Source: a virus. From it: a stretch of DNA of 26,539 nucleotides. How positions within the stretch are numbered: the first letter of the stretch is position 1; each line of letters starts with the position of its first letter. The notes below the pieces were generated by a model. That model had not been told where the DNA came from and ran no database searches. It worked only from the letters and a program-made list of their open reading frames with translations. The stretch spans positions 1 to 26,539 of the IMG/VR virus record IMGVR_UViG_3300025894_001524. One strand, written 5' to 3'. The position numbers were made by a program, and so were the translations under genes. This document shows, piece after piece, positions 1,053 to 24,771 of the stretch.

Positions 1053-2075
1053 ATGAAAACAATACTAGTAACAGGCGGTGCAGGATTTATTGCACATCAT
1101 TTTATAGACACAATTTTAAAAACAACCGATTGGCGCATAGTGTGCTTGGACAGATTGGATTACAGTGGAAACCTCAACAGGCTACATGAAGTTGTGTCTG
1201 CATATCCAGTAGAGACTCGCAAGCGTGTGCGTATTGTGCATCACGATCTAAAAGCAGAACTTAACCCGCAAATTGTTAGCACTATAGGCAAAGTGGATAT
1301 TATTGCACACCTAGCAGCAGGCTCACATGTGGATCGCAGTATTAGTAATCCCATGGAATTTGTAATGGACAATGTTGTAGGCACCACAAACTTGTTAAAC
1401 TATGCTCGTAACTTAGACAGTTTAGATCAGTTTATTTACTTCAGCACAGACGAAATATTTGGACCAGCGCCAGATGGTGTAAAGTATTCTGAAAACGATC
1501 GTTATAACAGTACCAATCCATACAGCGCAAGTAAAGCAGGTGGTGAGGAGATGGCGGTTGCATTTGAGAACACTTATGGCTTGCCAGTTATTATTACTCA
1601 CACTATGAATGTGTTTGGTGAAAGACAGCATCCAGAAAAGTATATTCCCATGTGCATTAAGAGAACCAGAGATGGTGAACTTATCACAGTGCACAGTAAC
1701 TCAGCTAAAACCAAAGCAGGTAGTAGACATTACATTCATGCTGAGGATGTTAGCAGTGCAGTAATGTTTTTATTGAATGCAGATTTAAGCAAGCTGGAAC
1801 CAGACTATGGTAATGCAAAATGCCAGAAGTTTAATATTGTGGGTTCAGAGGAGTTAGACAATTTACAACTAGCACAGTTTATTGCTGATGTGCAAGGCAA
1901 ACCTCTTAACTATGAGATGCTAGATTTCCACAGTGCTAGACCTGGACATGATTTACGTTATGCACTTAGCGGCGAAAAAATGGAACAAATGGGCTGGAAA
2001 CCTCAACCTGTGTTTGATAGACTAGAGCAAACGGTAAAATGGACACTTGACAACAACCGATGGTTAGTTATATAA
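1053..2075 (+). CDS. NAD-dependent sugar-nucleotide 4,6-dehydratase, RmlB-like (extended SDR)
   Basis: A 340-aa protein of normal RmlB length. The Rossmann NAD-binding motif VTGGAGFIAHH is near residues 5-15; the usual third glycine of GxxGxxG is alanine here. The catalytic triad region STDEIFG (around 130) carries the Thr-Asp-Glu set diagnostic of 4,6-dehydratases rather than simple epimerases. The YSASKAGGEE segment supplies the YxxxK catalytic pair, and the HYIHAEDVSSAV block is typical of the C-terminal substrate domain. Family enzymes convert dTDP- or UDP/GDP-hexose to the 4-keto-6-deoxy sugar, an early step of deoxysugar and surface polysaccharide synthesis. In phages such genes are thought to alter host LPS or supply sugars for modification. 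The exact nucleotide sugar cannot be told. A Shine-Dalgarno sequence (AGGA, 1043-1046) precedes the ATG. Its stop codon lies inside the -10 hexamer of the next gene's promoter. Confidence 0.92.
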   Translation: MKTILVTGGAGFIAHHFIDTILKTTDWRIVCLDRLDYSGNLNRLHEVVSAYPVETRKRVRIVHHDLKAELNPQIVSTIGKVDIIAHLAAGSHVDRSISNPMEFVMDNVVGTTNLLNYARNLDSLDQFIYFSTDEIFGPAPDGVKYSENDRYNSTNPYSASKAGGEEMAVAFENTYGLPVIITHTMNVFGERQHPEKYIPMCIKRTRDGELITVHSNSAKTKAGSRHYIHAEDVSSAVMFLLNADLSKLEPDYGNAKCQKFNIVGSEELDNLQLAQFIADVQGKPLNYEMLDFHSARPGHDLRYALSGEKMEQMGWKPQPVFDRLEQTVKWTLDNNRWLVI

Positions 2076-2076
2076 T
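2047..2076 (+). promoter_or_regulatory. Sigma70-type promoter for the Pol III-like gene
   Basis: A perfect -35 TTGACA (2047-2052) and a perfect -10 TATAAT (2071-2076) are separated by 18 bases. The predicted transcription start, 7 bases past the -10, is position 2083, exactly the A of the downstream ATG. The -10 covers the dehydratase stop codon. This looks like an early promoter read by unmodified host polymerase. Confidence 0.8.
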
Positions 2077-2082
2077 ATACAT

Positions 2083-2670
2083 ATGAAATATGATTTTGAT
2101 GTAGACATTGACTTAGCAGATCGATCTGAAATATTAAACATACTGGATCATACCCCAGCTAGTATATTAAAGGATGGCAAGTATACAAAACACAATACAG
2201 GTGTATACTTGCAAAATATTCCTGTAATGCCGTTGGAAGGATATAGTTCAATAGATCATAAACGTGCCGAAACAGAAGGCTGGTTTAAAGTAGACTTTCT
2301 TAACAATAGCATATACAAAGATATACGTAACGAAGATCATTTAGATACACTGCTAAACAGAGAACCTTTATGGGAACTGTTACAACATGAGGAAGTTGTC
2401 AACCAATTGTTTCATATTAATAAGTATATTGACTTAATGCAAGAGTATAAGCCTAGTAGCGTAGAACACTTAGCCATGCTGCTAGCAATTATCCGACCAG
2501 CCAAGCGACACTTACGGGGCTTGGACTGGTCAAATGTTACCAAAACTGTATGGCAAGCCCCAGTAGATAACTCCTACTATTTCAAGAAGTCTCACGCCAT
2601 AAGCTATGCAATAGCTATTTGTGTTCAATTAAATTTAATTTGTGAGAAACTAAGTAGTTTTGCGGATTAG
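2083..2670 (+). CDS. Small protein with DNA polymerase III alpha-like motifs (195 aa)
   Basis: The motifs of bacterial Pol III alpha (C family) appear in the right order. DFDVDIDLADRSEIL at residues 4-18 resembles the catalytic PDxDxDF block. GWFKVDFL near 66 resembles KFDFLGL. YKPSSVEHLAMLLAIIRPAK near 126 resembles the LKP...RPGPM block. YYFKKSHAISYAIA near 170 resembles FNKSHA-AYA. True Pol III alpha is about 1,160 aa, so this is at most a skeleton of the palm and fingers, without PHP, beta-binding or tau-binding parts, and is unlikely to be a full polymerase. I recall similar ~200-aa proteins of unknown role in marine T4-like phages. It has no Shine-Dalgarno site and its ATG coincides with the predicted start of its own sigma70 promoter. 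The 3' end overlaps a convergent minus-strand gene by 21 bases. Homology to Pol III is inferred from motifs only. Confidence 0.85.
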   Translation: MKYDFDVDIDLADRSEILNILDHTPASILKDGKYTKHNTGVYLQNIPVMPLEGYSSIDHKRAETEGWFKVDFLNNSIYKDIRNEDHLDTLLNREPLWELLQHEEVVNQLFHINKYIDLMQEYKPSSVEHLAMLLAIIRPAKRHLRGLDWSNVTKTVWQAPVDNSYYFKKSHAISYAIAICVQLNLICEKLSSFAD

Positions 2671-3021
2671 TTGGATACTGCGGCGTTTGATACGTTTCTT
2701 TAAAAGTGTTTGCATGCTAGTTACTGGACCAAAAAGTATTTTTACATCTTTGTTTGAAAATGTTTTGATACATTCCTTGAATCCAATCATTTCGTGCCTA
2801 AGAAAAATGTCAATAGGGATTTGCCGGTTACTTTCCCACCACCATAATTCTCCAAGTTCTAAGAATTTTTGTTTAAGATTTACTGAATGAATTGACTCTA
2901 CGTCGTAAAATGTAGTAATTTGGTTATCTTGATTTATTACAATCCCTACATATTCTTTTCCTGCATAGGAAATACCAGTTAGAAACTCTAAATTCTCGTA
3001 ATTATCATTGTCGCCTGCCAT
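2650..3021 (-). CDS. Conserved hypothetical phage protein, the only minus-strand gene
   Basis: A 123-aa reading frame on the minus strand fills a 380-base interval with no credible + strand gene. The protein has ordinary composition, an N-terminal beta-rich half (EFLTGISYAGKEYVGIVINQ), a central ELWWWESNRQIPIDIFL segment and a very basic C-terminus (KKRIKRRSIQLIRK). From memory the WWWESNR-IPI and FGPVTS...KRRSIQL patterns are conserved in T4-like marine phages, where no function is known; the basic tail hints at nucleic-acid binding. It converges on the Pol III-like gene with a 21-base overlap and is divergent from the gene at 3053, 31 bases separating the two start codons. No Shine-Dalgarno sequence is seen. 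A + strand ORF over the same bases is judged a shadow. Confidence 0.78.
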   Translation of the reverse strand: MAGDNDNYENLEFLTGISYAGKEYVGIVINQDNQITTFYDVESIHSVNLKQKFLELGELWWWESNRQIPIDIFLRHEMIGFKECIKTFSNKDVKILFGPVTSMQTLLKKRIKRRSIQLIRKTT

Positions 3022-3039
3022 GTGTATTTATTTAGCAAA

Positions 3040-3047
3040 GATAAATA
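3040..3047 (+). promoter_or_regulatory. Late promoter GATAAATA for the gene at 3053
   Basis: The octamer matches the NATAAATA late element of T4-like phages. With T4 spacing (element at -13 to -6) transcription would begin at 3053, the first base of the ATG, leaving no leader. Confidence 0.65.
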
Positions 3048-3052
3048 TAGTT

Positions 3053-3856
3053 ATGAGTAATACTGACAATAAATTATATCTCTATGAAAACAGCATTGAT
3101 TTAGTTGTAACAACTGATCATATTTATGTGGATAACAGGCCTATGAATTCAAGATATCTAAAAATACACAAAGGTGTATCAAATGAACTTATTTTTAATG
3201 TAAGAAATAGGGATAGGAAGTTGCAAAATGTAGCTCCCGACACAATAAGAGCTTACATAGTAGATCCTACTACCGGTACTAGAGTGGTAACTAAAATATT
3301 AGAAAACACACTAGATTTAGGTAAAGTTAAACTGTATATCTTTGAAGGTGACATACAAAATTTATCTCAGGGTTTATATCATATGTTCCTAACTCGTTCT
3401 ACCGTAGAAAACGAAGATACGCCGTTTTACGCTGATCAAAACAACAACATGCGCTTTACTATAGAAATCAGTGATCAAGGTTACGCAAGTCCTATTGCTA
3501 CACAGGAACAAAACACTTTTGTACAAACATCTAACACTTTGTTAGGCGATGATGCAAATATTTTTGTAACAAATGCATTACTAGGTAATCTAGAGAAGAA
3601 CTTTCCTAACGCATCCCACACTGCTGCATTCTATCTGGATGGCTTTACAGGAAACATCACAGTGCAAGCAAGTTGTATGCGATCAACTCCTGACTTAGAG
3701 GACCTAAGTACTGACTGGTTCGATGTAAACAGCTTGTCAATTTCAGACGCTAATATAACACTAGCCCACACTAATTTTCAAATTAACTGTAATTGGATTC
3801 GGGTAGTTAGCGAACCAATAACAGGTGATGTTTCTAAAGTACTACTTCGCAATTGA
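3053..3856 (+). CDS. Putative virion structural protein (267 aa)
   Basis: The chosen start is the ATG at 3053 (MSNTDNKLYLYENSIDL). A longer frame opens at 3008 but would run through the late promoter and the divergent gene's start. The 267-aa protein is soluble, beta-rich and has no signal peptide. It contains an Ig-like stretch in the middle (KLYIFEGDIQNLSQGLYHMFLTRS) and a C-terminal part (INCNWIRVVSEPITGD) of a type I recall from structural proteins of T4-like marine phages. Late promoter control supports a virion role, although it sits between replication genes. Its stop overlaps the -35 box of the primase promoter. The precise location in the particle is unknown. Confidence 0.75.
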   Translation: MSNTDNKLYLYENSIDLVVTTDHIYVDNRPMNSRYLKIHKGVSNELIFNVRNRDRKLQNVAPDTIRAYIVDPTTGTRVVTKILENTLDLGKVKLYIFEGDIQNLSQGLYHMFLTRSTVENEDTPFYADQNNNMRFTIEISDQGYASPIATQEQNTFVQTSNTLLGDDANIFVTNALLGNLEKNFPNASHTAAFYLDGFTGNITVQASCMRSTPDLEDLSTDWFDVNSLSISDANITLAHTNFQINCNWIRVVSEPITGDVSKVLLRN

Positions 3857-3880
3857 CAAAATAATAAATTGTGCTATACT
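3853..3880 (+). promoter_or_regulatory. Sigma70-type promoter with extended -10 for primase-helicase
   Basis: The -35 TTGACA (3853-3858) and -10 TATACT (3875-3880) are separated by 16 bases, with TG one base upstream of the -10 (extended -10, TGCTATACT). The predicted start, 7 bases past the -10, is 3887, the A of the primase ATG. The -35 overlaps the stop codon of the upstream gene. Confidence 0.78.
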
Positions 3881-3886
3881 AGTTAA

Positions 3887-4864
3887 ATGCTAGAAGAAAT
3901 AGTTTCATCTGTACACAGTCTACTAACAGAACATTTGCCAATACGCAATTCTAAAACGCCTAGTGGCTGGATAACCTTTGACTGTGTTATGTGTCCAGAC
4001 AAACGCAAACGTGCAGGAATTATACAGCAAGGTCCTCGTATAAGTTATAATTGTTTTAATTGCGGGTTTAAAACTGGCTGGAGTCCTAGTCCATTCTTAG
4101 GCAAAAAGTATAAGGAAATTGCGTCTAGGTTAGGCGCAGACAATAAAGCAGTTCATGCAGTTCAATTAGATCTTTTGAAGTACAGTGAAGAATTAGAATC
4201 GGCAGAAATAGACACATCGTTTAATTATATAAACAAAAAGTTTGATCCAGTTGAACTACCTGACAGTGCTATAAGTATAGATGACTTGCCTTCAAATCAC
4301 GAACTTGTAGAATATGCTAAAAGCAGAGGAATATATGGACTGTACCCGTTATTACATTTTACAGATTTGCTAAACAAACGTAGAGTAATAGTACCTTTTA
4401 TGTTTAATAATGAACTTGTGGGTTGGAGCGGTAGACATATAGCTCCCCCTGATAAAAACACAGCAAAATATTTACATAATCTGCAACCAGGATATGTGTT
4501 TAACATAGATCAATTTACAGCACAGGAACGAGAAATAATTATTGTGGTAGAAGGCATATTTGATGCTTTGCTTGTAGACGGAGTAAGCATTCTAGGTAAT
4601 AAGGTTACAGCAGAACAGGCACATCTAATAACACAATTAAACAAGCGAGTAATCGTGTGCCCTGACAAAGATGAAGCAGGAAAAGAGTTAATTAAGCAAA
4701 GTATAGCATTAGGTTGGGAAGTAAGTTTTCCTCCCTGGGCACCTGACATAAAAGATGCAGCAGATGCTTGCGCCAAATACGGAAGGCTCGCAACTGTGGC
4801 AAGTATAATTAAACATGCAACAGACAATGATATTAAAAAAGAAGTTAAGATGAGGATGATGTGA
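3887..4864 (+). CDS. DNA primase, T4 gp61-like (zinc finger plus TOPRIM)
   Basis: At 325 aa it is close to T4 gp61 (about 340). An N-terminal zinc-binding domain has CVMC (Cys33, Cys36) and CFNCGF (Cys56, Cys59), which in this family helps recognise the priming site. A TOPRIM catalytic core follows: IIVVEGIFDALLV near residue 218 provides the conserved Glu and VCPDKDEAGKELI near 257 the DxD metal-binding pair. It synthesises the RNA primers for lagging-strand replication and acts with the helicase encoded directly downstream. The helicase GTG start overlaps this gene's TGA (GTGA, 4861-4864), implying coupled translation of the two primosome parts. No Shine-Dalgarno sequence is present; the position is taken up by the promoter -10, so a leaderless mRNA is likely. 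Confidence 0.94.
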   Translation: MLEEIVSSVHSLLTEHLPIRNSKTPSGWITFDCVMCPDKRKRAGIIQQGPRISYNCFNCGFKTGWSPSPFLGKKYKEIASRLGADNKAVHAVQLDLLKYSEELESAEIDTSFNYINKKFDPVELPDSAISIDDLPSNHELVEYAKSRGIYGLYPLLHFTDLLNKRRVIVPFMFNNELVGWSGRHIAPPDKNTAKYLHNLQPGYVFNIDQFTAQEREIIIVVEGIFDALLVDGVSILGNKVTAEQAHLITQLNKRVIVCPDKDEAGKELIKQSIALGWEVSFPPWAPDIKDAADACAKYGRLATVASIIKHATDNDIKKEVKMRMM

Positions 4865-6231
4865 GCGAAATTACAGAATACACAGAAGAAATACAGCATT
4901 TGTTTTTACAATTTTTAGTGAGTGACCCTGATTTGTTTAGCAGATGTCTAAACATCGTGGATGCTGATAATTGGAATCGTAAATTTAAACCCACAATAGA
5001 ATTATTAATGAATCATAGTAAAGACTATAACACGATTCCAACACTGGAGCAAATACGTGCTGTGGGCAAAATTGATATTGAGGTAATACAGAATGTAACA
5101 CCTGAGCATCAAGACTGGTTTCTTAACGAGTTTGAGACTTTTTGTAGGCACAAGGCATTAGAGAAAGCAATCATAGAAAGCACTGATGATTTGGAAAAGC
5201 AAAATTACGGTGCAGTAGAAGACAAGATTAAGAAGGCAGTTCAAATTGGGCTAGTGAAAGACTTGGGACTAGACTATTTTGACAATCCCAAAGAACGTTT
5301 AGAGTGGATTAAAGCACAGAGTGGCGCAACCAGTACGGGCTGGAAAGGCATTGATCAGAAGCTGTATGGCGGCGTAAACAGAGGTGAGATCACAATATTT
5401 GCAGGTGGTTCAGGTTCGGGCAAAAGTTTGTTCCTGCAGAACTTTGGTGTTAACTGGGCATTAGCAGGATTAAATGTTGTTTACATTAGTTTAGAGCTCA
5501 GTGAGCAGTTAGTAAGTATGCGTTTAGACAGCATGGTAAGTGGATATGCAGCAAAAGACATTATGCGTAACATGGATGATGTTGATCTAAAAGTGCGTAT
5601 GAAAGGCAAAAAGTCTGGAAAATTGCGTGTTAAGTATATGCCTAGCGGAATGACAACAAATGATATACGTGTGTTTTTGCGAGAGTATGAGATTCAAAGT
5701 GGTATAAAAGTAGATTGTTTGTTAGTTGATTACTTAGACTTAATGAGTCCTATCAGTGTTAAGATTTCAGCAGAGAATATGTTTGTTAAAGACAAGTATG
5801 TGAGTGAAGAATTGCGTAATTTAGCAATGGAACGTAACCTATTAATGGTAACAGCAAGCCAGTTAAACAGAAGTGCAGTAGAAGAAATAGAGTTTGACCA
5901 CAGTCATATTGCGGGTGGTATTAGTAAGATTAACACAGCAGACAATGTTGTGGGTATTTTTACTAGTAATGCTATGCGTGAGCGTGGTAGATATCAGATA
6001 CAGTTTATGAAAACCAGAAGCAGTAGTGGTGTAGGACAAAAAGTAGACTTAAAATTTGACAAGGATACACTGCGTATTGAGGATTTGGAAGAAGGTGATG
6101 AGGACGCAATGAGTATGACTACAAGCAGCCTTATGTCTCAACTTAAAAAATCAGGCACAATCAAAGATGAACCCAAAGAGGAAAGTGTTGAGAGCAGCTT
6201 GCAGTTAAGAGATTTTCTTAAAAGAAAATGA
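4861..6231 (+). CDS. Replicative DNA helicase, DnaB-like (T4 gp41 type)
   Basis: 456 aa, similar to T4 gp41 (475 aa). The N-terminal ~150 residues are helical as in DnaB-type N domains. The RecA-like motor follows with Walker A FAGGSGSGKSLFLQN near residue 182, an ISLELSE segment (motif H1a, catalytic Glu), Walker B CLLVDYLDLMSP near 289 and the motif H3-like VTASQLNRSAVEE with Gln and Arg near 335. It should form a hexamer unwinding DNA 5'-3' ahead of the fork and recruit the primase. The start is GTG at 4861: it overlaps the primase stop, AGGATG just upstream can serve as ribosome site, and no alternative ATG fits. A late promoter begins within its stop codon, separating the replication operon from the late genes that follow. 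Confidence 0.95.
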   Translation: MSEITEYTEEIQHLFLQFLVSDPDLFSRCLNIVDADNWNRKFKPTIELLMNHSKDYNTIPTLEQIRAVGKIDIEVIQNVTPEHQDWFLNEFETFCRHKALEKAIIESTDDLEKQNYGAVEDKIKKAVQIGLVKDLGLDYFDNPKERLEWIKAQSGATSTGWKGIDQKLYGGVNRGEITIFAGGSGSGKSLFLQNFGVNWALAGLNVVYISLELSEQLVSMRLDSMVSGYAAKDIMRNMDDVDLKVRMKGKKSGKLRVKYMPSGMTTNDIRVFLREYEIQSGIKVDCLLVDYLDLMSPISVKISAENMFVKDKYVSEELRNLAMERNLLMVTASQLNRSAVEEIEFDHSHIAGGISKINTADNVVGIFTSNAMRERGRYQIQFMKTRSSSGVGQKVDLKFDKDTLRIEDLEEGDEDAMSMTTSSLMSQLKKSGTIKDEPKEESVESSLQLRDFLKRK

Positions 6232-7037: not shown

Positions 7038-7066
7038 TTGACACAATATAAAAATTGCTGTATAAT
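7038..7066 (+). promoter_or_regulatory. Consensus sigma70 promoter for the tRNA genes
   Basis: Perfect -35 TTGACA (7038-7043), 17-base spacer, perfect -10 TATAAT (7061-7066). The predicted start is about 7073, two bases before mature tRNA-Pro. This is the ideal host-type promoter layout. Confidence 0.85.
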
Positions 7067-7074
7067 AATTATAT

Positions 7075-7151
7075 CGGAGTATAGCTCAGCTTGGTAGAGC
7101 ACCTGCTTTGGGAGCAGGGGGTCGTTGGTTCGAATCCAGCTATTCCGACCA
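7075..7151 (+). tRNA. tRNA-Pro (anticodon UGG)
   Basis: A complete cloverleaf: acceptor arm CGGAGTA (7075-7081) pairs with TATTCCG (7141-7147) with one G-U; anticodon stem CCTGC/GCAGG encloses loop TTTGGGA with anticodon TGG at 7109-7111; the T loop GGTTCGAATCC is canonical. The 3' CCA is encoded (7149-7151) after discriminator A. It reads CCA and wobble proline codons. It is transcribed with the tRNA-Gly eight bases downstream. Confidence 0.96.
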
Positions 7152-7364: not shown

Positions 7365-7382
7365 AAATACAGGAGAATGGTT

Positions 7383-10300
7383 ATGGAAATAAGTAACAAT
7401 TCGTCTGGACAGGATGTTCTCGTAATCAGCAAGGATGCTGAAGACAGGATAAAAGAATTATTAACACCTGAATTACTGGGGCAACTTGGTATTTCAGTAA
7501 ATGCAAACATACAAGATATTGTAGGTTTTTTATTAAAAGAATTTGATTTAACTCTGGAAGAATTACTAGAGTTATCTTCATCAGAATTATATGACTTACT
7601 TGCACTAGCTGTAGTATTACCTGCATTTAACCAGCAGTTTTCTGATAAAGAATTACTAGCAGAATTACTACCGGATGACGTAGCAGAATTTGATTTTGAT
7701 GCGTTAGATCTAAATAACTTAGAAGCAACAGCGGCAGGTGGTTCAGAGGAAACTGGTGAAGGTGGTAGCACAATTGTTCAAGCTGAACGAATAGACACAG
7801 CAGGTGACGAAACCTCTGCACTAGCACAGGAGTTGCTCAACACAGAGCAAACACAAAACAATGATAATACACTATTACAACCAGACCAAACTACTCCTAC
7901 AGATAATAATAACAGTGACAATAGTGTTATTGATGATTCTGCTGAGGGAACTAATGAGACTACTCAGACCAATGTGGAAGCAGAAAATACAACCGTTGAT
8001 GAATCTAGTGAAAGCACAGGTACAGAAACAGCGAGCGAAACTGAGACAACTGAAAGCGCAGTAACGGAGGAAGTCAGCGATGAAACGTCTGATACTAATA
8101 CTGAAACAACCGATAGTACTAATGTCAATAGTGATAATACTGCTAGTACTGGAGGTAACGATAGCAACGATGGATTAACAACTGACACATCGGACACTGT
8201 AGAGGATAATACAAATGAAGACACTAGCACTGAATCTACTGCTGGGGACACTGACAATACTAGTGATAGTGGGGATAATAGCACTGAGCAATCAGTTGTG
8301 GACACTAACGAATCCGCCTCAGACAGCACAACTGACTCAGAATCAAATACAAACACTGAAGGATCTGGACAGAATGATGCAGACCAAAATACAGCAGGCG
8401 CAAGCGCAGGCACAGACACGAGCGAACCAGAATCAACTACACCGGATACCGGACCTACCGATAGTACCACCACTGAATCTGAGCAGCAAGCAGATACAGG
8501 AACAGATACTGAGTCATCGGGACAAACAGACAATAGTGATACTTCACAACAAGAAGAAGTATCATCAGGAGCAGATACAGAAAGCGGAACGTCAGATCAA
8601 ACAAATACAGACCAGACAAATGTTATAGAGGATAATAATGATAATGCATCTCCTATTGAAACTGATCAGGAAGATTCCTCGGGAACCGTTCCACTGGATG
8701 GGACTAATGTTGATACCGTTGTCGATGGCGGCACTAATGATGCTGGGAGTGATGATTCCACTACTAATTTGGAAGGCAATGTAAATGATACAACAGATCA
8801 AACTAATGACACACCAACTGATACAGGAACTGCCACTGATACTGGATCCCAAAGCACTGAAGATAATACTTCAGATAATAGCGGGACAAATGATGTTGAT
8901 GGGAACAATAGCTCTAATGATACAGGCTCACAAGATACTGTAGAGATCCAACCTGTTGTAGAAACAAATCGCACAGAACAAACGGTTGTTACAGAAGAAA
9001 TAACTTTTGGTGAATCAGTAACCCAAACAGAGTTTGAAGATACTACCCGAGATAATTTAGAGTTACGAGTTTATACTGATACAATTACAACTCCTGTTAC
9101 AACAACATCCACTAGCATAACCAGCACAACTATTTCTTACAGTGATGGTACTACAGAAACAATTCAACAAGAGCCAGTGGTTACAGCAAGCACAACTGAG
9201 AATGTGGAAATAGTTTCCAGAGAAGATATTACGAATGCAACTCCATTATTAGTAGAGCAATCTTTCACTATTGACGCAGGACAATCTATTACAGGTAATA
9301 TTTTTGAAGGTGGTGCGCCAGGTGATGGACCGTTCACTGTAGAGATTTTAAATTCCACAACTTCCTCATCATTAGAAATTGATGAACAGGGTAATTTTGT
9401 ATATACTCCTGATGAAAATTACAGTGGCCTAAACAGAACACAGATCACAGTAACTGATGCAGATGGTGAAACCAGTGTTGCTAGATTTACCTTTAGTGTT
9501 ATAAGTAACACCTTTAGTGCAAACTTGGCATCCGATTTACCTGACACAATACCAGATGCAGCAGACGACAACTATACTATAGTTGAAGGGACACAAGTTA
9601 CTAGTAATCTATCTAGCAACGACAGCATTGAGGATCCTGACTCTGTTTTCGAACTGCTAACTCAGCCGGAAGTTGGTACGGTAACATTACGACCAAATGG
9701 TGTTTTTCTTTATACTGTTGACGAAGGTCTTACAGGAACACATACTTTTACATACCAAATAGTTGACTCTAACGGCGATACTAGTTCTGCAACTGTAACA
9801 ATGACTGTTCTAGAGAAATCAGTGACCAGTGTTGTTGACGAGATAGTGTTATTAGATCAAACAGTAATTGATTTAAATCCTGTAGTAACAACAGAAGAAA
9901 CAGACGTAATTTCGGTTACAGAAATTAACACAGAAGATCGTACTGAAGTGACAACTCAAACAGGTTATTATGCTGATACTAGCACTATTGAAACTGTTAC
10001 AACCACTATTACGAAAACCGTTACTACTGTTTCATACAATAATAACACGCAAGACGTAAGCGAAACTGACCCAGAAACTGTGATTACTTCAGAATTCACA
10101 GCTACCACTGCTGACAGAGAAGAAGTATTGTCAGTAGAAACACTGGAAGTAGAGCCTGTTATTACTTATGAGGAAACTGTAGATGTTACTGTGGGAGACA
10201 CGCTAACAGAAACCACTTACGAAGACGTAACAACCAGAGAAAACGATTTAGAGAACAATGTAGAAAACGTAACCATAACACGTAACTACACTGACGTTAA

Positions 10301-13300
10301 CAATACTGATACAACTACCGTTACAACCACAACTCCTGTGTACACGTATACATTTAGTGATGGGACTGAAGTAGTTGAACTGGGTGAACCTGACATATTA
10401 ACAGAAGTAACAACTGAAACCACAACAGATTCCCGCAGTGAAGAGATTTTTACTGGCACTGAAGAACCTGTTATTACTACTGAAGACGAAGTAATTACTG
10501 ATGTTGTAGTGAGTGAACCAGTGCTTACAACAACCAGTAGCGAGCTAGTGACATCAGAAGTTAATAATGAAGATCGTACTTATGTAACAACAACTGACAT
10601 AACTTATGTAGATACAACATCAGTAACTACAACAACAACTACAACTATTACGCCAGTGTTTACTATTACATATTCAGATGGCACAACAGAAACAGAACGT
10701 GGCGAAAGTGTAGTCACAGAAACAGCAGATGTAGCGGAGACGGCAGAGACTAGAACAGAAAGCGAAACTGTAACAGTGGATGCGGAAGTGACAGTTACAA
10801 CTGCAACAACCACAGAAGTTATTCCTGGCGAGCCTACATCAGTTACTGAAAGAGGTGAAGGTGTTACTGTAATTGAAAATGATTTGGAAAATCAAATAGA
10901 AAACATAACGGTTAGTTACTCGCCAATTACCACAACTACTACGCCTGTAACAAATATAGAAACCACTGTTACAACAACAGTGTATACATATCCAGATGGC
11001 ACTACCACAACTGTAACTGAAAGTGTTGCAAGCACCACATACGATCAAACTGTGGTAGTTGATCAGCAAGCCACAGAATATGAATACAGTTCACGACAAC
11101 CTGAACTAGTAGTTACTTATGAGGAAGTTTCTGAAACTGTTGTAGGCGACACCACACTGGAAACAAGTTATGTGGATGACACTGTTACAGAAAATGATCT
11201 AGAAAACAATGTAGAGAATGTGACTGTTACTAGAACGCACACTGATGTAAATTCGACACCTACAACTGTGATCATCACTGTTACTCCAATTAGCACTTAC
11301 GCTTACAGTGACGGCACAGTTGACGTGCAACGCGGTGATCCTGCTATTACTGAAACTGTTAGCACAGAGATAGTCACAACAACCAGGGAAGAAATCATAT
11401 TTACTGGTGTTGAACAACCTGTTATTGAGACTGCATACACTGTGGTAGTAGAGGAAACTCAGGGAGAAAGTGTTACAGAAACCACATACGTTGACACGCC
11501 TGTTACTGAGATCGACCTTGAGGCTAAAACTGAGACAACCACTACTACTAGAACATACACGGATGTAACTACAACTCCTGTCACAACAACCACAACTACT
11601 ACTCCAGAATATACTATTACATATTCGGACGGCACTGTGGAAACAGAAACTGGCGAAGCTGTGCAAGAAATTAGCACAACTAATGATGTATTTACAGCAG
11701 AAAGATCAGAAGATAGTGTTTCAGAAATTACAGTTACGCCTGTGACAACAATAGATGTTGTGGAAGAAGTTGCTGTTACTGTTAGTGAACCAGAACGGGT
11801 ATCTACTGATACAACCACCGTTAGTCAGGATTACGAAGCTCACACGGAAACAACTACAGTAACCAGAGATTATACGGATACTATTGTAACAACTACAACA
11901 ACAAACATATTTTTAACGCCTACAGATACTTATACCTTCACTGACGGACAACAGGTTGTGATAGTAAGAGACACTGTAAGCAATCAACAAAATGTTGGTG
12001 TACCAACTACAACTGAAGGGTCTTTTGTGGTTAGTGAAACCACTGTGGACATTGAGCCTGTGATTACTTACACTACAGTAGTAGAAGAAGTTGTAGGCGA
12101 TCCTGTTACTGAAACAGTGTACCAAGATGTTGAAGGTAAGCAAATTGATTTAGAAAATAATATAGAGAACGATACTGTTACTCGCAATTTTACTGACACG
12201 ATTACCACAACAACCACAACAACAGAAACAACCACAAGCCTATTGACTTACACTTATTCAAACGGCGAAGTTAGAACAGTTCAGGGCGAAACAACACAAT
12301 CAGTTAGCACTTCAGATAGTGTGGATGTTGTTGAGCGTAGCGAAGTAATTTACGAAGGCACAACACTACCAGAAATAGAAACTACCTATATTACCGCAGT
12401 TACAAATGAAACAGGTGAAAGTGTTACTGAAGGTGTTTATAATGACGTAACCACAGTCCAAAACGATACAGTAGCACACACTAGTACTACAACTGTTACT
12501 AGAAATTACACTGACACGATTACTACCCCTAATACTGAAACAACAACTATTACGCCTGTGTATACACTTACATATTCAGATGGGTCAACAGAAACAGAAT
12601 ACGGTACGCCTGTTGTTACAGAAGTTGTAACCAATTCAGTTGAAGTAGTAGAGCGCTCAGAGACTATTAACGAAACTACAGCAGATGCAGTATTAGTTAT
12701 TACTGATACAGTGACAACTGAAAGTGTACCAGGAACTCCTGTTACTGAAACAACTTTTAGTGATGCATCCGAAACAGTTAAGGATACGGAAAAATTAACC
12801 GAAACTACAACTGTCACTAGATCATATACTGATAACATTACTACGCCAACAGTTACCACAGTAACAACTGTACTCACATACACATACACTTATGCAGACG
12901 GTGAAGTGCAAAGTATTGAAGGCGATCCCACTGTTGGCAGCAGCACAACGTATGCAACTGAAACTGTGGAACGTTCAGAAGTAATATCCACAACCACAGT
13001 GAACGTCCAACCTGAAACAACTTACGAACAAACTGTTACCACAGTGGTAGGTGATCCAGTTATTGACACAGTGTTGATAGATTCAAGTACAAGTAGATTC
13101 ATAGACACTGACAACAACAGGGAAGATGTTATCACTGTTGATACATATCAAACTACTACCACAGTAACAACTGTGGTTACAACAGAAACAACACCTATTT
13201 ACACTTATACCTTTAGTGATGGCACTGTGATAGTTACTAACGGAGAGATCACAACTCAAGTTGAAACCAGTAACGCTGTGGATGTTGTGACCAGCACAGA

Positions 13301-15023
13301 ATCAGACACAGTGTATGAGCAGCCAGTAATTACTGAGGAAGTTATATCCACAGTGGAAGTCACCAAGGACACAGGTGAAATTGTTACCACTTACACTGAT
13401 GAGATTGTGGTTGAAAATGATCTGGATGCTAATAAGGAGATTATTACAACGACCAGGACGTTTACAGATGAGACGACTACTCCTGTAACAACAACTACTA
13501 CCACGTACACTGAATACACATTAACCTATTCAGATGGTACTGTAGAGAAAGAACAGGGTGTTAGCACAGTTGAAGCAGTTAATAGTTCTGAAGTAACAAC
13601 TGCTACTAGACAGGAAGTTTACACTGATACTGATGTGCCTGATTTGGTAGTTACTTACGACGTGGTCACGGAAGTTACTTCTGGCGAAACTGTTAGTGAA
13701 ACAGTTGACACTGATACAGTTACTAGAACAATTGATTATGATAGCAATCAAGAGTCAGTGGTTACTGTTACAGTAAGTGTAACAACAAACACAACTCCAG
13801 TAACAACAACTGTTACCACAACACCAGTCAACACTTACACTTACAGCGATGACACAATAGAAGTTGAACGTGGAACCAGTGTGGTTGAAAGCACAACTGT
13901 TGACACTGTTACACAGGATACAACAACTACCAGTGATACTGAATACGAGCAGCCAGTTATAACGACCTCTGAGCAACAGGTAGTTACAACTGTGGTTGGA
14001 GATACAACCACTGAAACAACCAGTTCTGATGAAACAGTAACATCAAAAGATGTACCTAACAAAACTGAGACTACCACAGTTACTAGGTACTTCACAGACG
14101 TTGCTACAACTCCTACAACTGAAACTACAACTGTGACTCCTGTTTATACGTTAACATACTCAGACGGATCAACAGAAACAGAATACGGTACTAGTACCAG
14201 CACAGATGTGGTTACTACAGACAGTGTGACTACCAACAGAGAAACTGTAATATCAGAAAGCACAGTTAATATTGCACCTGTTGTCACGTATACTGTAACA
14301 GAAACTGAGGTAACATTAGATCCAGTGTTAACTGATACACAGGAATCTACCACAGTAACAACAGTAGAGGACGAAGAAAACGAGCGGGATGTTATAACAA
14401 CCACCGTAACAACAACGGAAACGTTTAGCACTGAAACACAAACCACAACAGAAACAACACCCGTAAGCACTTACACTTACAGTGACGGCACTGTGGTTGT
14501 TCTAACGGGTTCTACCACAAGTGAAACAATCAGCACTTATGAAAGTTCTCAAACAGTTACTAGCGAGGACACTGTTACCTATGAAGAATGGCCTGATGAT
14601 GAAGGCGATGGCAACAATGGTCACGGTAACGATGAGGATGGTACTGACGAAAGCAATCCTGGCAACAGCAACGGCAACAACGGCAACAACGGCGACAATA
14701 GCAACAACGGCGGCGGATCAGATGCTAACAATGGTTTTGGAAACGGAGACCAAGAAGCACCTGGCGGCAGTGAAGACAATAACAATGCTGAAAACTCCTC
14801 AGATGATGACACAGAAGAGGAAGAGGAAGACGAAGAAAGTAAAGGCAACGGCAAGGACAAAGACAAAGACAACGGTAAGGGCAAAATGAGTTACAATGAC
14901 TTAATAGAAGAGGAGGCAGACGAAACTGTCCCTACTGGTACTGGCTTTGATGCAGGTTTAGAGGCTGCCATATACACAGATTTGCCAAAGTTTGAAACTT
15001 ACACAGATCCCGATATAATCTGA
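7383..15023 (+). CDS. Giant repeat protein (about 2546 aa), putative virion fibre/adhesin
   Basis: Two ATGs lie downstream of AGGAGA (7371-7376); the second, at 7383, has proper spacing, the first (7377) directly abuts it. Layout by residue: 1-118 acidic and helical (leucine-rich LEELLELSSSELYDLL); about 119-520 a low-complexity acidic Ser/Thr/Asn/Asp/Glu linker; about 520-600 one copy of a Thr-rich unit; about 622-810 two cadherin/Ig-like beta domains (NFVYTPDENYSGL, DADGETS, then FLYTVDEGLTGTHTFTYQI, DSNGDTSSA); about 810-2400 fifteen further units of ~106 residues, each with a poly-Thr run and a Y-[ST]-DG-T hairpin; then a Gly/Asn/Asp-rich stretch, a K/D-rich stretch and a distinct C-terminal tail. 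No cysteine was noticed. Late promoter and strong ribosome site suggest an abundant late product. A long surface filament binding host or particles is the best guess; location in the virion is not shown. Confidence 0.9.
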   Translation: MEISNNSSGQDVLVISKDAEDRIKELLTPELLGQLGISVNANIQDIVGFLLKEFDLTLEELLELSSSELYDLLALAVVLPAFNQQFSDKELLAELLPDDVAEFDFDALDLNNLEATAAGGSEETGEGGSTIVQAERIDTAGDETSALAQELLNTEQTQNNDNTLLQPDQTTPTDNNNSDNSVIDDSAEGTNETTQTNVEAENTTVDESSESTGTETASETETTESAVTEEVSDETSDTNTETTDSTNVNSDNTASTGGNDSNDGLTTDTSDTVEDNTNEDTSTESTAGDTDNTSDSGDNSTEQSVVDTNESASDSTTDSESNTNTEGSGQNDADQNTAGASAGTDTSEPESTTPDTGPTDSTTTESEQQADTGTDTESSGQTDNSDTSQQEEVSSGADTESGTSDQTNTDQTNVIEDNNDNASPIETDQEDSSGTVPLDGTNVDTVVDGGTNDAGSDDSTTNLEGNVNDTTDQTNDTPTDTGTATDTGSQSTEDNTSDNSGTNDVDGNNSSNDTGSQDTVEIQPVVETNRTEQTVVTEEITFGESVTQTEFEDTTRDNLELRVYTDTITTPVTTTSTSITSTTISYSDGTTETIQQEPVVTASTTENVEIVSREDITNATPLLVEQSFTIDAGQSITGNIFEGGAPGDGPFTVEILNSTTSSSLEIDEQGNFVYTPDENYSGLNRTQITVTDADGETSVARFTFSVISNTFSANLASDLPDTIPDAADDNYTIVEGTQVTSNLSSNDSIEDPDSVFELLTQPEVGTVTLRPNGVFLYTVDEGLTGTHTFTYQIVDSNGDTSSATVTMTVLEKSVTSVVDEIVLLDQTVIDLNPVVTTEETDVISVTEINTEDRTEVTTQTGYYADTSTIETVTTTITKTVTTVSYNNNTQDVSETDPETVITSEFTATTADREEVLSVETLEVEPVITYEETVDVTVGDTLTETTYEDVTTRENDLENNVENVTITRNYTDVNNTDTTTVTTTTPVYTYTFSDGTEVVELGEPDILTEVTTETTTDSRSEEIFTGTEEPVITTEDEVITDVVVSEPVLTTTSSELVTSEVNNEDRTYVTTTDITYVDTTSVTTTTTTTITPVFTITYSDGTTETERGESVVTETADVAETAETRTESETVTVDAEVTVTTATTTEVIPGEPTSVTERGEGVTVIENDLENQIENITVSYSPITTTTTPVTNIETTVTTTVYTYPDGTTTTVTESVASTTYDQTVVVDQQATEYEYSSRQPELVVTYEEVSETVVGDTTLETSYVDDTVTENDLENNVENVTVTRTHTDVNSTPTTVIITVTPISTYAYSDGTVDVQRGDPAITETVSTEIVTTTREEIIFTGVEQPVIETAYTVVVEETQGESVTETTYVDTPVTEIDLEAKTETTTTTRTYTDVTTTPVTTTTTTTPEYTITYSDGTVETETGEAVQEISTTNDVFTAERSEDSVSEITVTPVTTIDVVEEVAVTVSEPERVSTDTTTVSQDYEAHTETTTVTRDYTDTIVTTTTTNIFLTPTDTYTFTDGQQVVIVRDTVSNQQNVGVPTTTEGSFVVSETTVDIEPVITYTTVVEEVVGDPVTETVYQDVEGKQIDLENNIENDTVTRNFTDTITTTTTTTETTTSLLTYTYSNGEVRTVQGETTQSVSTSDSVDVVERSEVIYEGTTLPEIETTYITAVTNETGESVTEGVYNDVTTVQNDTVAHTSTTTVTRNYTDTITTPNTETTTITPVYTLTYSDGSTETEYGTPVVTEVVTNSVEVVERSETINETTADAVLVITDTVTTESVPGTPVTETTFSDASETVKDTEKLTETTTVTRSYTDNITTPTVTTVTTVLTYTYTYADGEVQSIEGDPTVGSSTTYATETVERSEVISTTTVNVQPETTYEQTVTTVVGDPVIDTVLIDSSTSRFIDTDNNREDVITVDTYQTTTTVTTVVTTETTPIYTYTFSDGTVIVTNGEITTQVETSNAVDVVTSTESDTVYEQPVITEEVISTVEVTKDTGEIVTTYTDEIVVENDLDANKEIITTTRTFTDETTTPVTTTTTTYTEYTLTYSDGTVEKEQGVSTVEAVNSSEVTTATRQEVYTDTDVPDLVVTYDVVTEVTSGETVSETVDTDTVTRTIDYDSNQESVVTVTVSVTTNTTPVTTTVTTTPVNTYTYSDDTIEVERGTSVVESTTVDTVTQDTTTTSDTEYEQPVITTSEQQVVTTVVGDTTTETTSSDETVTSKDVPNKTETTTVTRYFTDVATTPTTETTTVTPVYTLTYSDGSTETEYGTSTSTDVVTTDSVTTNRETVISESTVNIAPVVTYTVTETEVTLDPVLTDTQESTTVTTVEDEENERDVITTTVTTTETFSTETQTTTETTPVSTYTYSDGTVVVLTGSTTSETISTYESSQTVTSEDTVTYEEWPDDEGDGNNGHGNDEDGTDESNPGNSNGNNGNNGDNSNNGGGSDANNGFGNGDQEAPGGSEDNNNAENSSDDDTEEEEEDEESKGNGKDKDKDNGKGKMSYNDLIEEEADETVPTGTGFDAGLEAAIYTDLPKFETYTDPDII
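9000..14600 (+). repeat. Protein-level tandem array: 16 Thr-rich units, ~317 bp period
   Basis: The Y-S-D-G-T hairpin codons recur at about 9138, then at 10034, 10352, 10670, 10987, 11304, 11622, 11937, 12254, 12572, 12891, 13211, 13527, 13841, 14157 and 14477. From the second copy on, spacing is 314-320 bases, so the unit is about 106 codons. Between copies 1 and 2 there is an excess of about 580 bases holding the two Ig/cadherin-like domains. Nucleotide identity between units is only partial. Each unit shows ENDLENN--N-T-TR-YTD, a Thr run, Y-Y-DGT, an acidic strand and TY-E---V-GD. Confidence 0.85.
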
Positions 15024-19131: not shown

Positions 19132-21750
19132 ATGACTTCAAGGACTGTACTAACAGAAAGCGTATGGCAAGCGCTCAATGAAGATACCCAAAATTACTTA
19201 ACCGAATGGGACCAGTTGGGTTTATATCTTCAAGAAAATGCTCATATATTTGAAGCAGAATTAACGCCACAGCAAATTAATGATATCTTTACTAATGCAG
19301 AACAGTATGCTGTCGATAGCGGCAGTTTCCAAACTAAATTAGGCAAAGTAGGCAATAAAGCAGCAGATGCTGGTAAAGCAGCAGTGGGCGGTGTTAAAGT
19401 TGCTGCTGATGTAATGGCTAAAGCTAATGCCCAACTTAATAAACTGGGAGCTGCAATACAAGATACTGCCCCCATTAAAGGCATTGATGCGGCATTTGAA
19501 AAAGCAAAAAAAGATTTATATGTAAAGCTAGGCGGTAAAGATTCTAAAGTAAATCAGGTAATAATGAAAGCAAGCCAACTGGCAAAAGATCATCCTGGCA
19601 AAACAAAGTTTTTAGTTGGTGCGTTAACAGTAGCAGCATCATTAGCAGCAGGCCCGGCAGGCGGCGCCGCAGCAGGTTATGTATTAAGAGGCGCAAGTGA
19701 TTTAATTGCAGGTGAAAAACTCAGCACAGCAGTAGGCAAAGGTTTGAAGACAGCAGCAATGGGTTACTTGTCAGGCAAAGCATTTGAATTTGCAAAAGAA
19801 GTATTTCAGGATATAGCTAGTCCAGAAGATATAGCAGCAGTAGCAAACGATCCAGAACAAGTTGCAGCAGCCGCCAAAAAAGCAGGAGAAGCACTTCCTC
19901 CTAGGATGCCTTACCAGCAGTTTAGTAGGCAAGGGCGTATGATGGATTTGCAAGACATGAATGATACCATGAAAGATGTAGGCGGGCAGATGGGATTAAA
20001 ACCACCGTTTGAGGCTAATTTTCAAATGGGAGTGCCTGTAGAAATTAATGGCGTGCCGGTGCCTCAAGATATATTAAGCGGAGTAGATCCCGTAATTCCT
20101 GGAGAGAACTTCAACGAGTTAAGGGATGCTTGGCGTGCCGAAAATGGAGTAGCTGCACCGCCTGCAGGAAGTGCGTTTGATAAGTTAGATGCAGCAGGTA
20201 TGGAAGATGACTTTGCAGGCCCGGCAGTCGGCGCAGCAGATGCGGCAGGCGGAGCAGCAGATGCGGCAGGCGGAGCAGCAGATGCGGCAGGCGGAGCAGC
20301 AGATGCGGCAGGCGGAGCAGCCGGTGCAGCAGCAGACGCTGGATCTGCAATAAACATTGAAGATATACCTATGAAAGGAAATGGCAGGTTTGACGATCTG
20401 TCTGATGCGTTTACTTCATTAAGTTCAGATCAACAGGCAGTATTGTATGCTGATGAAATGGGATTAATGCCAAGCCCAGAGTTTGCACAGGGTTTAATTA
20501 ATAACGATATTTTGCCAACAGCAACGGGTGGTGAAATACTTAATGTAATGAAACAAAACAGTGTAAATCCATTGGAGTATTACAAAGAATTAGAAGCAGT
20601 TGGTAAAATTGACGCCAATATATATACTAAAATTAGACAAAGTCTCGACAGTCTTAAGGCGGCAGGTAAATTAGATAATGATTATATGTGGGCAGAAAGC
20701 ATAGATGTTGATAAACATAATGCATTGTATGAAACTGCTAAACTAAAATATATGTCTGGCATGCTACTTACAGAAACAGAACAACAAGTTTTAAATGAAG
20801 GCCCGTTAGATGCTATTAAGAAAGGCGCCGCTAAAGCTGCAAGCGCAGTTGGTGGTGCAGTAGCAAAAGGTGCTGCCAAAGTTGCACAGGGCGCGAAGTC
20901 TGCAGGCCGTGAACTTGGACAGCAAGTAACTGCTAAAAAATTAAACAGTTTATGGAAAAATGCAGGTGCTCCAACAGATGCTCCTAGCGTTTCTAGTATT
21001 TTAGCAAAAGCAGGTTTAGATAGCCAAGGCATATCAGCAGTTAGCACAGCCTCAAAAGTTGAGTTGCCAGCACCAGCAGCAACGCCAGCAGCAGCAACGC
21101 CAGCAGCAGCAACGCCAGCAGCAGCAACGCCAGCAGCAGCAACGCCAGCAGCAGGACAAGCAGCACCAGCAGGACAAGCAGCAACAGCAGAGCCTAAGAA
21201 GCAAGGCGCCATAAGTAAAATAGGTAAAGCAATCGGTGGTATGGCTAAAGGAGCTGTAGCAGGCGCTAAAGGAGCAGCACCAGCAGGACAAGCTGCACCA
21301 GCAGGACAAGCAGCACCAGCAGGACAAGCAGCACCAGCAGGACAAGCTGCACCAGCAGGACAAGCAGCAGGATTAAAAGGACGTATGCAAGGTGATCTCG
21401 ACGATATGACCAAAGCACGAGCAGCCGCCGGATTAGACAATGAACCTGGACAAAAATCAGCCAGAGGAGCAGCACCAGATGCTAAAGGGGTTGCACAAGT
21501 TAAACCTAAAGCAGCACCTAAAGCAAAATCAGCAGGACCACAAAGTAGTGCAGATTTACCCAGAGGAACGTCATTTACTATTCCACAAAGTGGAGGCACT
21601 ACTAAAGCATATCGTTGGGAAGGCGGAATGTGGAGTGAATTATCTCCTGGGGGCAAATGGCAAACAGGAAAAATTAAAAATGATTTAGCATTTAAGTTAT
21701 ACTTAGGTTCTAAAAAGAATGCAGCAGCAGATGCTAAGGCAATAAGCTGA
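19132..21750 (+). CDS. Large Ala-rich repeat protein, putative head-associated (872 aa)
   Basis: The N-terminus MTSRTVLTESVWQALNEDTQ carries LTE and LNE sites that match the T4 prohead-protease consensus. A helical region to about residue 150 is followed by a Gly/Ala hydrophobic stretch (KFLVGALTVAASLAAGPAGGAAAGYVLRG, about 160-188) that may enter a membrane. Three tracts are low complexity: ADAAGGA repeats near 369, AATPA repeats near 649 and GQAAPA repeats near 717. A second leader-like block MLLTETEQQVLNEGPLDAIKKGA lies near 544, followed by GRELGQQVTAKKLNSLWKNAGAP, a pattern I recall from T4-like marine phages. The C-terminal ~70 residues (SFTIPQSGGTTKAYRWEGGMW) look like a folded domain. 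It starts a four-gene operon (next ATG overlaps its stop). The exact role is unknown. Confidence 0.82.
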   Translation: MTSRTVLTESVWQALNEDTQNYLTEWDQLGLYLQENAHIFEAELTPQQINDIFTNAEQYAVDSGSFQTKLGKVGNKAADAGKAAVGGVKVAADVMAKANAQLNKLGAAIQDTAPIKGIDAAFEKAKKDLYVKLGGKDSKVNQVIMKASQLAKDHPGKTKFLVGALTVAASLAAGPAGGAAAGYVLRGASDLIAGEKLSTAVGKGLKTAAMGYLSGKAFEFAKEVFQDIASPEDIAAVANDPEQVAAAAKKAGEALPPRMPYQQFSRQGRMMDLQDMNDTMKDVGGQMGLKPPFEANFQMGVPVEINGVPVPQDILSGVDPVIPGENFNELRDAWRAENGVAAPPAGSAFDKLDAAGMEDDFAGPAVGAADAAGGAADAAGGAADAAGGAADAAGGAAGAAADAGSAINIEDIPMKGNGRFDDLSDAFTSLSSDQQAVLYADEMGLMPSPEFAQGLINNDILPTATGGEILNVMKQNSVNPLEYYKELEAVGKIDANIYTKIRQSLDSLKAAGKLDNDYMWAESIDVDKHNALYETAKLKYMSGMLLTETEQQVLNEGPLDAIKKGAAKAASAVGGAVAKGAAKVAQGAKSAGRELGQQVTAKKLNSLWKNAGAPTDAPSVSSILAKAGLDSQGISAVSTASKVELPAPAATPAAATPAAATPAAATPAAATPAAGQAAPAGQAATAEPKKQGAISKIGKAIGGMAKGAVAGAKGAAPAGQAAPAGQAAPAGQAAPAGQAAPAGQAAGLKGRMQGDLDDMTKARAAAGLDNEPGQKSARGAAPDAKGVAQVKPKAAPKAKSAGPQSSADLPRGTSFTIPQSGGTTKAYRWEGGMWSELSPGGKWQTGKIKNDLAFKLYLGSKKNAAADAKAIS
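20236..20319 (+). repeat. Four exact 21-bp tandem repeats
   Basis: Four identical units run back to back in frame, each encoding ADAAGGA, then decay into AGAAADAG. Exact identity indicates recent slippage or unequal exchange. Confidence 0.95.
21076..21150 (+). repeat. Five exact 15-bp tandem repeats
   Basis: GCAGCAACGCCAGCA is repeated five times without change, in frame, encoding AATPA. It lies 70 bases from the next repeat-bearing linker in the same gene. Confidence 0.95.
21277..21366 (+). repeat. Five 18-bp tandem repeats
   Basis: GCACCAGCAGGACAAGC(A/T) is repeated five times in frame, encoding APAGQA; only the last base varies. A further single copy and a half occur near 21151-21180, just upstream of a basic segment. 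Confidence 0.95.
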
Positions 21751-24102: not shown

Positions 24103-24110
24103 GATAAATA
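24103..24110 (+). promoter_or_regulatory. Late promoter GATAAATA for the gene at 24142
   Basis: GATAAATACTAG lies 22 bases after the preceding terminator; AGGAG (24129-24133) precedes the ATG. Confidence 0.68.
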
Positions 24111-24141
24111 CTAGTAACATAAATTTTTAGGAGAATTAAAA

Positions 24142-24771
24142 ATGGCACAATCAAAAGGAAACGGCTCTGGTGTAGCAGAATTTGCAACAGGTACATTAGT
24201 AGCTAAATCAAACCTTAAAGCAATCAAAGTAGATTTGGGATTTGACATCTCAGGCGAAGACGATGCATCAGGCGAAGCTGTAGAAACAGCATTACAATTT
24301 GTTCAACCATTGATGTACATGGGTGTATCAGCTGATGCGACATCAGATGTTATTAACGGTCAAACTGAAGCAGCATATGACGGCGCTGGTTCAAACGGTA
24401 GTTTTGTTGGTGGAACAGGTTATGCAGCAGCAGAAGTTATCACTCTAAGCGATGGCTCTACTGTAACAGTTGATACAGTTGACGCTGGTGTGGTTACTGA
24501 GTTTACAATTTCTTCAGTTGGTGGCGCAAATTCAAGCGAAGGTGCTACACTAACAACTGCTAGTTCAACTGTAGCAGGTAACGATGACTTTACACTAACA
24601 CTAGGTGGCGACAACGTTGCAGGCGGTGGCGGTGTATTCCATTGCATCGTTGATGGTTCACAATGTGATGTTGCAGCATTGCAAGCACAAATTCGTGCTG
24701 TAGGCACTGTAGCTGGTAACAACTTTGCTGGCGCAACAGTAGCATTAGGTTCAAGTATTACTGTAGCTTAA
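24142..24771 (+). CDS. Virion-type protein with inserted GGTGY-type domain (209 aa)
   Basis: Begins MAQSKGNGSGVAEFATGTL. The C-terminal ~45 residues (FHCIVDGSQCDVAALQAQIRAVGTVAGNNFAGATV) align with the end of the 123-aa protein encoded next (MHVALEGTFGTDTYDG...LIAVAATIDGVNFANILV), as does the GEAVETALQF segment with GGAVEKALEL. Between them lies an extra ~80-residue Gly/Thr/Val-rich stretch containing FVGGTGYAAAEVITLSDGSTV, a beta motif often seen repeated in phage and secreted beta proteins. So this looks like a paralogue with a domain inserted. Two cysteines in the C-terminal part (CIVDGSQC) could pair. Strong ribosome site, own promoter and terminator: an abundant late product, possibly capsid decoration or fibre. 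Confidence 0.82.
   Translation: MAQSKGNGSGVAEFATGTLVAKSNLKAIKVDLGFDISGEDDASGEAVETALQFVQPLMYMGVSADATSDVINGQTEAAYDGAGSNGSFVGGTGYAAAEVITLSDGSTVTVDTVDAGVVTEFTISSVGGANSSEGATLTTASSTVAGNDDFTLTLGGDNVAGGGGVFHCIVDGSQCDVAALQAQIRAVGTVAGNNFAGATVALGSSITVA

Follow-up and report, generated by a model that had tools for sequence, protein, structure and literature searches.

T4 late promoters consist of the octamer TATAAATA, work with gp55, gp33 and gp45, and start transcription at the sixth base past the octamer. The phages described here share with T4 both this octamer and its distance to the expected start; they differ in that T4 has no ORF start at 5 nt and its late genes have leaders of ordinary length. 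Leaderless genes are an already known kind. The Thermus phage phiYS40 is a lytic phage whose middle and late transcripts are leaderless, with most mRNAs of one temporal class made without a leader and translation factors said to be involved (PMC3594737). However, its Thermus host is itself widely leaderless and its promoters are different, whereas the present phages combine a T4-type late octamer with sigma70 promoters, and genes led by a Shine-Dalgarno site (SD-led) coexist with the others within the same class. The cI mRNA of phage lambda, transcribed from PRM, begins on a leaderless AUG (PMC9031893, PMC3160421) and likewise joins a host sigma70 promoter to a transcription start on the AUG, but it concerns a single repressor gene, whereas several replication genes are involved here, conserved over great distances. 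TA-led (leaderless) genes of bacteria are marked by a -10-like signal some 12 bp upstream of the start (PMC3160421). The sigma70 cases below have the same promoter-to-start geometry (a gap of 6 nt at 2083 and 3887), with a -10 at a 6-7 nt gap, no Shine-Dalgarno site and a preference for AUG over GUG and UUG. The TA-led survey differs in covering cellular genomes only, in finding few such genes in alpha- and gamma-Proteobacteria, and in having no phage late promoter of this kind (PMC3160421).

Reading from sequence comparison, we conclude that marine relatives of T4 place both early and late promoters such that the mRNA should begin on the start codon itself; the arrangement is shared by many genes and kept between very distant phages. 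A lineage of the T4 superfamily very probably expresses a defined share of its genes from leaderless mRNAs, using sigma70 and late promoters both. In the literature searched, which included few subscription journals, no paper linked T4-type late promoters, jumbo-phage primases or cyanophages to leaderless mRNA; the genome-wide use of leaderless starts by a T4-type late promoter and the deeply conserved leaderless primase were, within that search, undescribed.

Promoters and start codons in the window

The whole stretch of DNA analysed (the window) is a 26.5 kb fragment of a virus record, with a G+C content of 39%. By its genes, it comes from a relative of PA5oct, Atu_ph07 and RaK2 within the T4 superfamily. 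The nearest cultured relatives of its primase, helicase and polymerase-like ORF are T4-superfamily jumbo phages (PA5oct, Phosso, Atu_ph07, SCTP-2, RaK2 and their kin), and it holds a gene block whose order is kept in PA5oct/Atu_ph07/RaK2-like phages. This block comprises a DNA polymerase-like ORF of 195 aa (2083-2670, + strand; PHROG 11778, DnaE/PolIII-alpha-like in phage Phosso), a conserved opposite-strand ORF (2650-3021, - strand; PHROG 11637), a virion structural protein ORF of 267 aa (3053-3856, + strand; PHROG 14467), a DNA primase predicted to be leaderless (3887-4864, + strand; PHROG 47, Toprim), and a DnaB-like replicative helicase with a GTG start (4861-6231, + strand), which overlaps the primase end as the downstream member of the same operon.

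The initial annotation had predicted transcription starts exactly on the ATGs at 2083, 3053 and 3887, and the bases, spacings and overlaps it gave are all correct to the base. Before ORF 2083, a sigma70-type promoter (2047-2076, + strand; score 15.8, among the window's three best) consists of TTGACA at 2047-2052, an 18-nt spacer and TATAAT at 2071-2076; 6 nt follow, and the ATG begins on the seventh base past the -10. Before the primase, the second sigma70-type promoter (3853-3880, + strand) has TTGACA at 3853-3858, a 16-nt spacer and TATACT at 3875-3880, preceded by the TGC of an extended -10, again with 6 nt to the ATG at 3887. The late site is the T4-type octamer GATAAATA (3040-3047, + strand), from which 5 nt lead to ATG 3053, the sixth base past the octamer and the expected late start. 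None of the three genes has a Shine-Dalgarno site, as had been noted, and both early promoters do overlap the previous gene's stop, which lies at 2073-2075 inside the first -10 and at 3854-3856 inside the second -35. Base -1 is T at 2083 and 3053 and A at 3887, so that a transcription start at A3885, giving a 2-nt leader, is as plausible for the primase as one at A3887; a primase start codon upstream of 3887 is excluded by the in-frame stop TAA at 3884-3886.

Sigma70 matches scoring at least 15 number three in the window: those before ORF 2083 and the primase, and a third (7038-7066, + strand) that stands 8 nt before tRNA-Pro (7075-7151) and serves as an in-window control that sites of this kind are genuine promoters. 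In 40 simulated windows (first-order Markov, window composition), no promoter of this score stood 6 nt before an ATG. The T4-type late octamer NATAAATA is found before virion genes in the window (virion families by PHROGs), with 12 forward ATAAATA octamers in all. The other 11 have ordinary geometry, most about 18-35 nt before a start codon and usually with a Shine-Dalgarno site, as at 24103-24144 (+ strand), where GATAAATA is followed by AGGAG and ATG 24142; the octamer at 3040 is therefore an exception among the window's late promoters.

That octamer is one of two at 3025-3047 that lie 7 nt apart, diverge (AATAAATA on the - strand, GATAAATA on the + strand) and serve a divergent gene pair. 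For ORF 2650-3021, the gap between AATAAATA (3032-3025) and the ATG is 3 nt; some relatives have a GTG at a 5-nt gap. Elsewhere in the window, ORF 7377-15023 (2548 aa), behind an SD-led late promoter, opens with a long stretch in which codons for Thr, Ser, Asn and Asp abound, and ORF 19132-21750 contains the short in-frame repeats GCAGATGCGGCAGGCGGA, CAGCAGCAACGCCAG and CACCAGCAGGACAAG at 20216-20340 and 21060-21370.

Directly upstream of the polymerase-like ORF lies a nucleotide-sugar epimerase ORF (1053-2075, + strand), in the place that another small gene occupies in other phages of the group; its arrival may have forced a new promoter at 2047. The geometry at ORF 2083 occurs only in the window's nearest relatives, one with identical sequence and one that is 69% identical and has a 5-nt gap. 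More distant relatives have no such promoter there, and the gene mostly overlaps or follows the upstream gene. We thus reject any generality of the 2083 case beyond near relatives, and chance is a possible explanation for this single case.

The primase promoter across related phages

The initial annotation had proposed surveying related phages for promoter-to-ATG spacing at the primase gene. We took primase relatives from IMG/VR and from cultured phages, and defined leaderless geometry as a gap of 4-9 nt with a promoter score of at least 11. The spacing is conserved: 93 of 104 distinct primases have the leaderless geometry, nearly always with a gap of 6, while nine are SD-led (mostly from cultured jumbo phages) and two are neither. 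The proteins with the promoter geometry diverge to about 30% identity, and on the primase tree, where resolution of the deep branches is poor, leaderless primases cluster strongly and extend over very long branches. Nearly all IMG/VR relatives show a TTGACA/T-like box, a spacer of 15-18 nt (20 in one group), a TATAAT-like box, 6 nt, and then a start codon to which there is no alternative; the stop of the upstream gene often lies within one of the promoter boxes. Between the -10 and the ATG the length is constant and the sequence freely variable. One group, with TTGACA-N17-TAATAT, has its -35 also constrained by the upstream gene's coding end and its -10 by that gene's stop codon, which makes promoter conservation in this group not wholly independent.

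Cultured phages fall on both sides. The PA5oct primase reads TATAAT-GTGCGC-GTG (in the PA5oct record, the predicted leaderless starts are this GTG at 145890 and the structural gene's ATG at 144985), those of XacN1 and SCTP-2 have a gap of 6 and that of RAS14 a gap of 7; gaps of 7-8 nt occur in some relatives (L006, L017, L022 and RAS14). RaK2, 121Q, GAP32, BF, SE_PL and XaC1 have the same gene order in the primase block, and most have a sigma70-like promoter at the primase, but they differ by a leader of 24-32 nt with a Shine-Dalgarno site; the Atu_ph07 primase has a 28-nt leader. In three cultured phages the primase start appears to be misannotated (locus positions): ATG 2492 against an annotated 2588 in SCTP-2 (L168), 2489 against 2642 in XacN1 (L170), and GTG 5435 against 5429 in PA5oct (L163), where the annotated start is 6 nt too early and abuts the -10 box.

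Why should these phages use such starts? The initial annotation had argued from Alphaproteobacteria, which are known for many leaderless mRNAs. That argument is unneeded and unproven: the cultured phages whose primases show this geometry have Pseudomonas, Xanthomonas, Stenotrophomonas and Salicola as hosts; an alphaproteobacterial host as the sole cause is likewise not supported. The late geometry is present in a phage of Pelagibacter, HTVC008M.

Spacing and start-site signature of the two promoter classes

Spacing was counted over the window, the fetched loci and whole contigs pooled. In related contigs the distance from ATAAATA to an ATG peaks at 5 nt, with 85 ORFs there against 1 at 4 nt and 10 at 6 nt, and a separate broad hump of SD-led ORFs lies at 16-30 nt. 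Start codons at the 5-nt gap are ATG in 85 cases, GTG in 10 and TTG in none, and among all 6-mer/distance pairs TAAATA at 5 nt ranks first in enrichment (116 versus 9.5 expected). Homologues of ORF 3053 keep the 5-nt gap in L003, L006, L014, L017, L023, L055, L089, L160 and PA5oct; in most other relatives the octamer stands 16-24 nt before the ATG, mostly with a purine-rich, Shine-Dalgarno-like site. PA5oct has three late starts at 5 nt, and in HTVC008M all nine ATAAATAN5ATG sites fall at annotated CDS starts (eight by the ORF rule). By PHROGs, the late leaderless genes include the terminase large subunit, head-tail adaptor, head closure, PAAR and other virion proteins. PA5oct, SCTP-2 and HTVC008M encode a gp55-like late sigma factor; none was found in the marine contigs searched, which are partial.

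The sigma70 class also has a one-base peak, with 68 ORFs at 6 nt from -10 to ATG, 7 at 5 nt and 6 at 7 nt; start codons at this gap are ATG in 68 cases, GTG in 3 and TTG in none. Once the primases are set aside, 13 ORFs are left at 6 nt, with 6 and 5 at the neighbouring distances. These other genes comprise helicases, exonucleases, a dNMP kinase and the window's polymerase-like ORF, and a UvsW-like helicase is repeatedly of this type, with a gap of 5 or 6. Outside the primase and the UvsW-like helicase, the case for an early leaderless class is thinner.

The genomes are AT-rich, and composition by itself might yield promoter-like strings before ATGs. We regard this as exceedingly improbable, as the peaks are one base wide, are missing at ATGs that open no ORF (2 cases only), and are absent in T4, KVP40, phiM12 and RaK2, and the late peak was reproduced in held-out contigs, fetched later for another reason (27 ORFs at 5 nt, none at 4 or 6 nt). 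Sharpness, the non-ORF, mirror-pattern and T4 controls and the held-out set together rule out chance in AT-rich sequence for the set. We also rejected the geometry as a property of all T4-like phages, since T4, KVP40 and phiM12 have none and syn9 and P-SSM2 do not exceed the control, and as a property of all jumbo relatives, since RaK2, 121Q, GAP32, Phosso and Atu_ph07 are not clearly enriched.

Shine-Dalgarno pairing is absent from both sets. Median anti-Shine-Dalgarno energies are +0.1 and +0.6 kcal/mol in the two leaderless sets versus -5.7 and -6.4 for promoters further away, and a core Shine-Dalgarno tetramer occurs in 1.5% of the sigma70 and 6% of the late leaderless cases. Could the start codons simply be wrong, with the true starts, and their Shine-Dalgarno sites, downstream? 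Two cultured phages are indeed annotated with later primase starts, but those starts would lose aligned N-terminal residues, and an SD-led start within 50 codons downstream is present in only 6 of the 85 late and 5 of the 68 sigma70 cases, about the rate for SD-led genes. We rejected downstream SD-led starts on this ground and give them almost no probability; together with the upstream stops, their scarcity leaves little alternative choice of start codon.

The position of the transcription start is suggested by the bases around it. A pyrimidine at -1 and a purine at +1 form the usual initiator. Base -1 is T in 73 and C in 12 of the 85 late cases, and a pyrimidine in 91% of the 68 sigma70 cases. 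The SD-led promoters of these phages have a pyrimidine/purine step at +5/+6 past the octamer, and past the -10 they have a T/A step at +6/+7; because they show the same -1/+1 step there, the start can be placed independently at octamer +6 and -10 +7. In the leaderless sets this initiator step coincides with base -1 and the ATG. An alternative is that transcription starts 1-4 nt before the ATG, the spacing serving only to leave a 5' end too short to fold. The position of sigma70 starts can shift by a base or two, gaps of 7-8 nt exist, as noted above, and the window primase has A at -1, all of which would suit very short leaders; the late peak, however, is one base wide and a purine at -1 occurs in 0 of 85 cases, and we think this alternative improbable.

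It is still less probable that the promoters act solely for genes further downstream or in other phases, while the adjacent gene is translated from a longer read-through mRNA. The genes do lie close to the upstream gene's end, and behind the primase comes a helicase that has its own start. Yet the longer mRNA would also be without a Shine-Dalgarno site, because the promoter boxes occupy its place, and the exact spacing would go unexplained. Alongside leaderless mRNAs, read-through from upstream genes could deliver leadered copies too.

The initial annotation's reading of deliberate leaderless mRNAs thus gains strong comparative support for the primase and late geometries, well beyond its three cases, but is weaker at 2083, which only the nearest relatives share. 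Loss of the promoter from relatives that keep the ORF, named there as evidence to the contrary, is seen in distant relatives of ORF 2083, while the primase and most close relatives of ORF 3053 keep theirs.

Proposed translation route and its meaning

From these patterns we infer where transcription starts and how the messages are translated. Host RNA polymerase with sigma70 would begin transcription on the first base of the start ATG in early replication genes, the primase above all, and the phage late-promoter machinery, recognising the octamer, would do so at many virion genes. The 5'-terminal AUG would then be recognised directly by the 70S ribosome, or by the 30S subunit with initiator tRNA, without a Shine-Dalgarno helix, and other genes in the same phage would retain ordinary Shine-Dalgarno leaders. 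Kasugamycin spares mRNAs of the leaderless kind.

IF3 and bS21 both bear on start-site choice. A family of marine phage contigs encodes a full-length IF3, both Pfam domains included (L197:6647-7177, - strand, in G008; also L273-L308); in G008 the IF3 gene adjoins bS21, a small heat-shock protein and ClpS. Two of the IF3 contigs, G008 and G012, also carry a leaderless primase. Most relatives searched yielded no IF3, but their records are fragments; bS21 is present in 7 of 23 records, including HTVC008M and PA5oct, and was not found in the window's own record, likewise a fragment. The presence of IF3 and S21 in huge phages is already known (PMC7162821), and a review covers the translation of leaderless messages to which 70S, or 30S together with initiator tRNA, binds directly (PMC9031893). 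We speculate that these phages might run leaderless and Shine-Dalgarno programmes side by side and steer host ribosomes with their own factors (IF3, bS21), the promoter-to-ATG spacing acting as a phage code for ribosome state at each gene. We consider this unlikely as it stands. On leaderless mRNA, IF3 reportedly can work in either direction (PMC9031893), and its link to the leaderless genes is therefore hypothetical.

T4-like gene expression is usually read as promoter, leader, Shine-Dalgarno site and gene. An abundant marine branch appears to have dropped the leader for replication and virion genes, in both temporal classes, and to have kept it elsewhere. This would account for gene callers misplacing starts, as at the primases of XacN1 and SCTP-2 and, by 6 nt, of PA5oct, and it yields a simple rule for finding such starts in marine viral data: octamer +6 and -10 +7. 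These phages would thereby offer a natural, testable system for how viruses that infect bacteria exploit leaderless translation.
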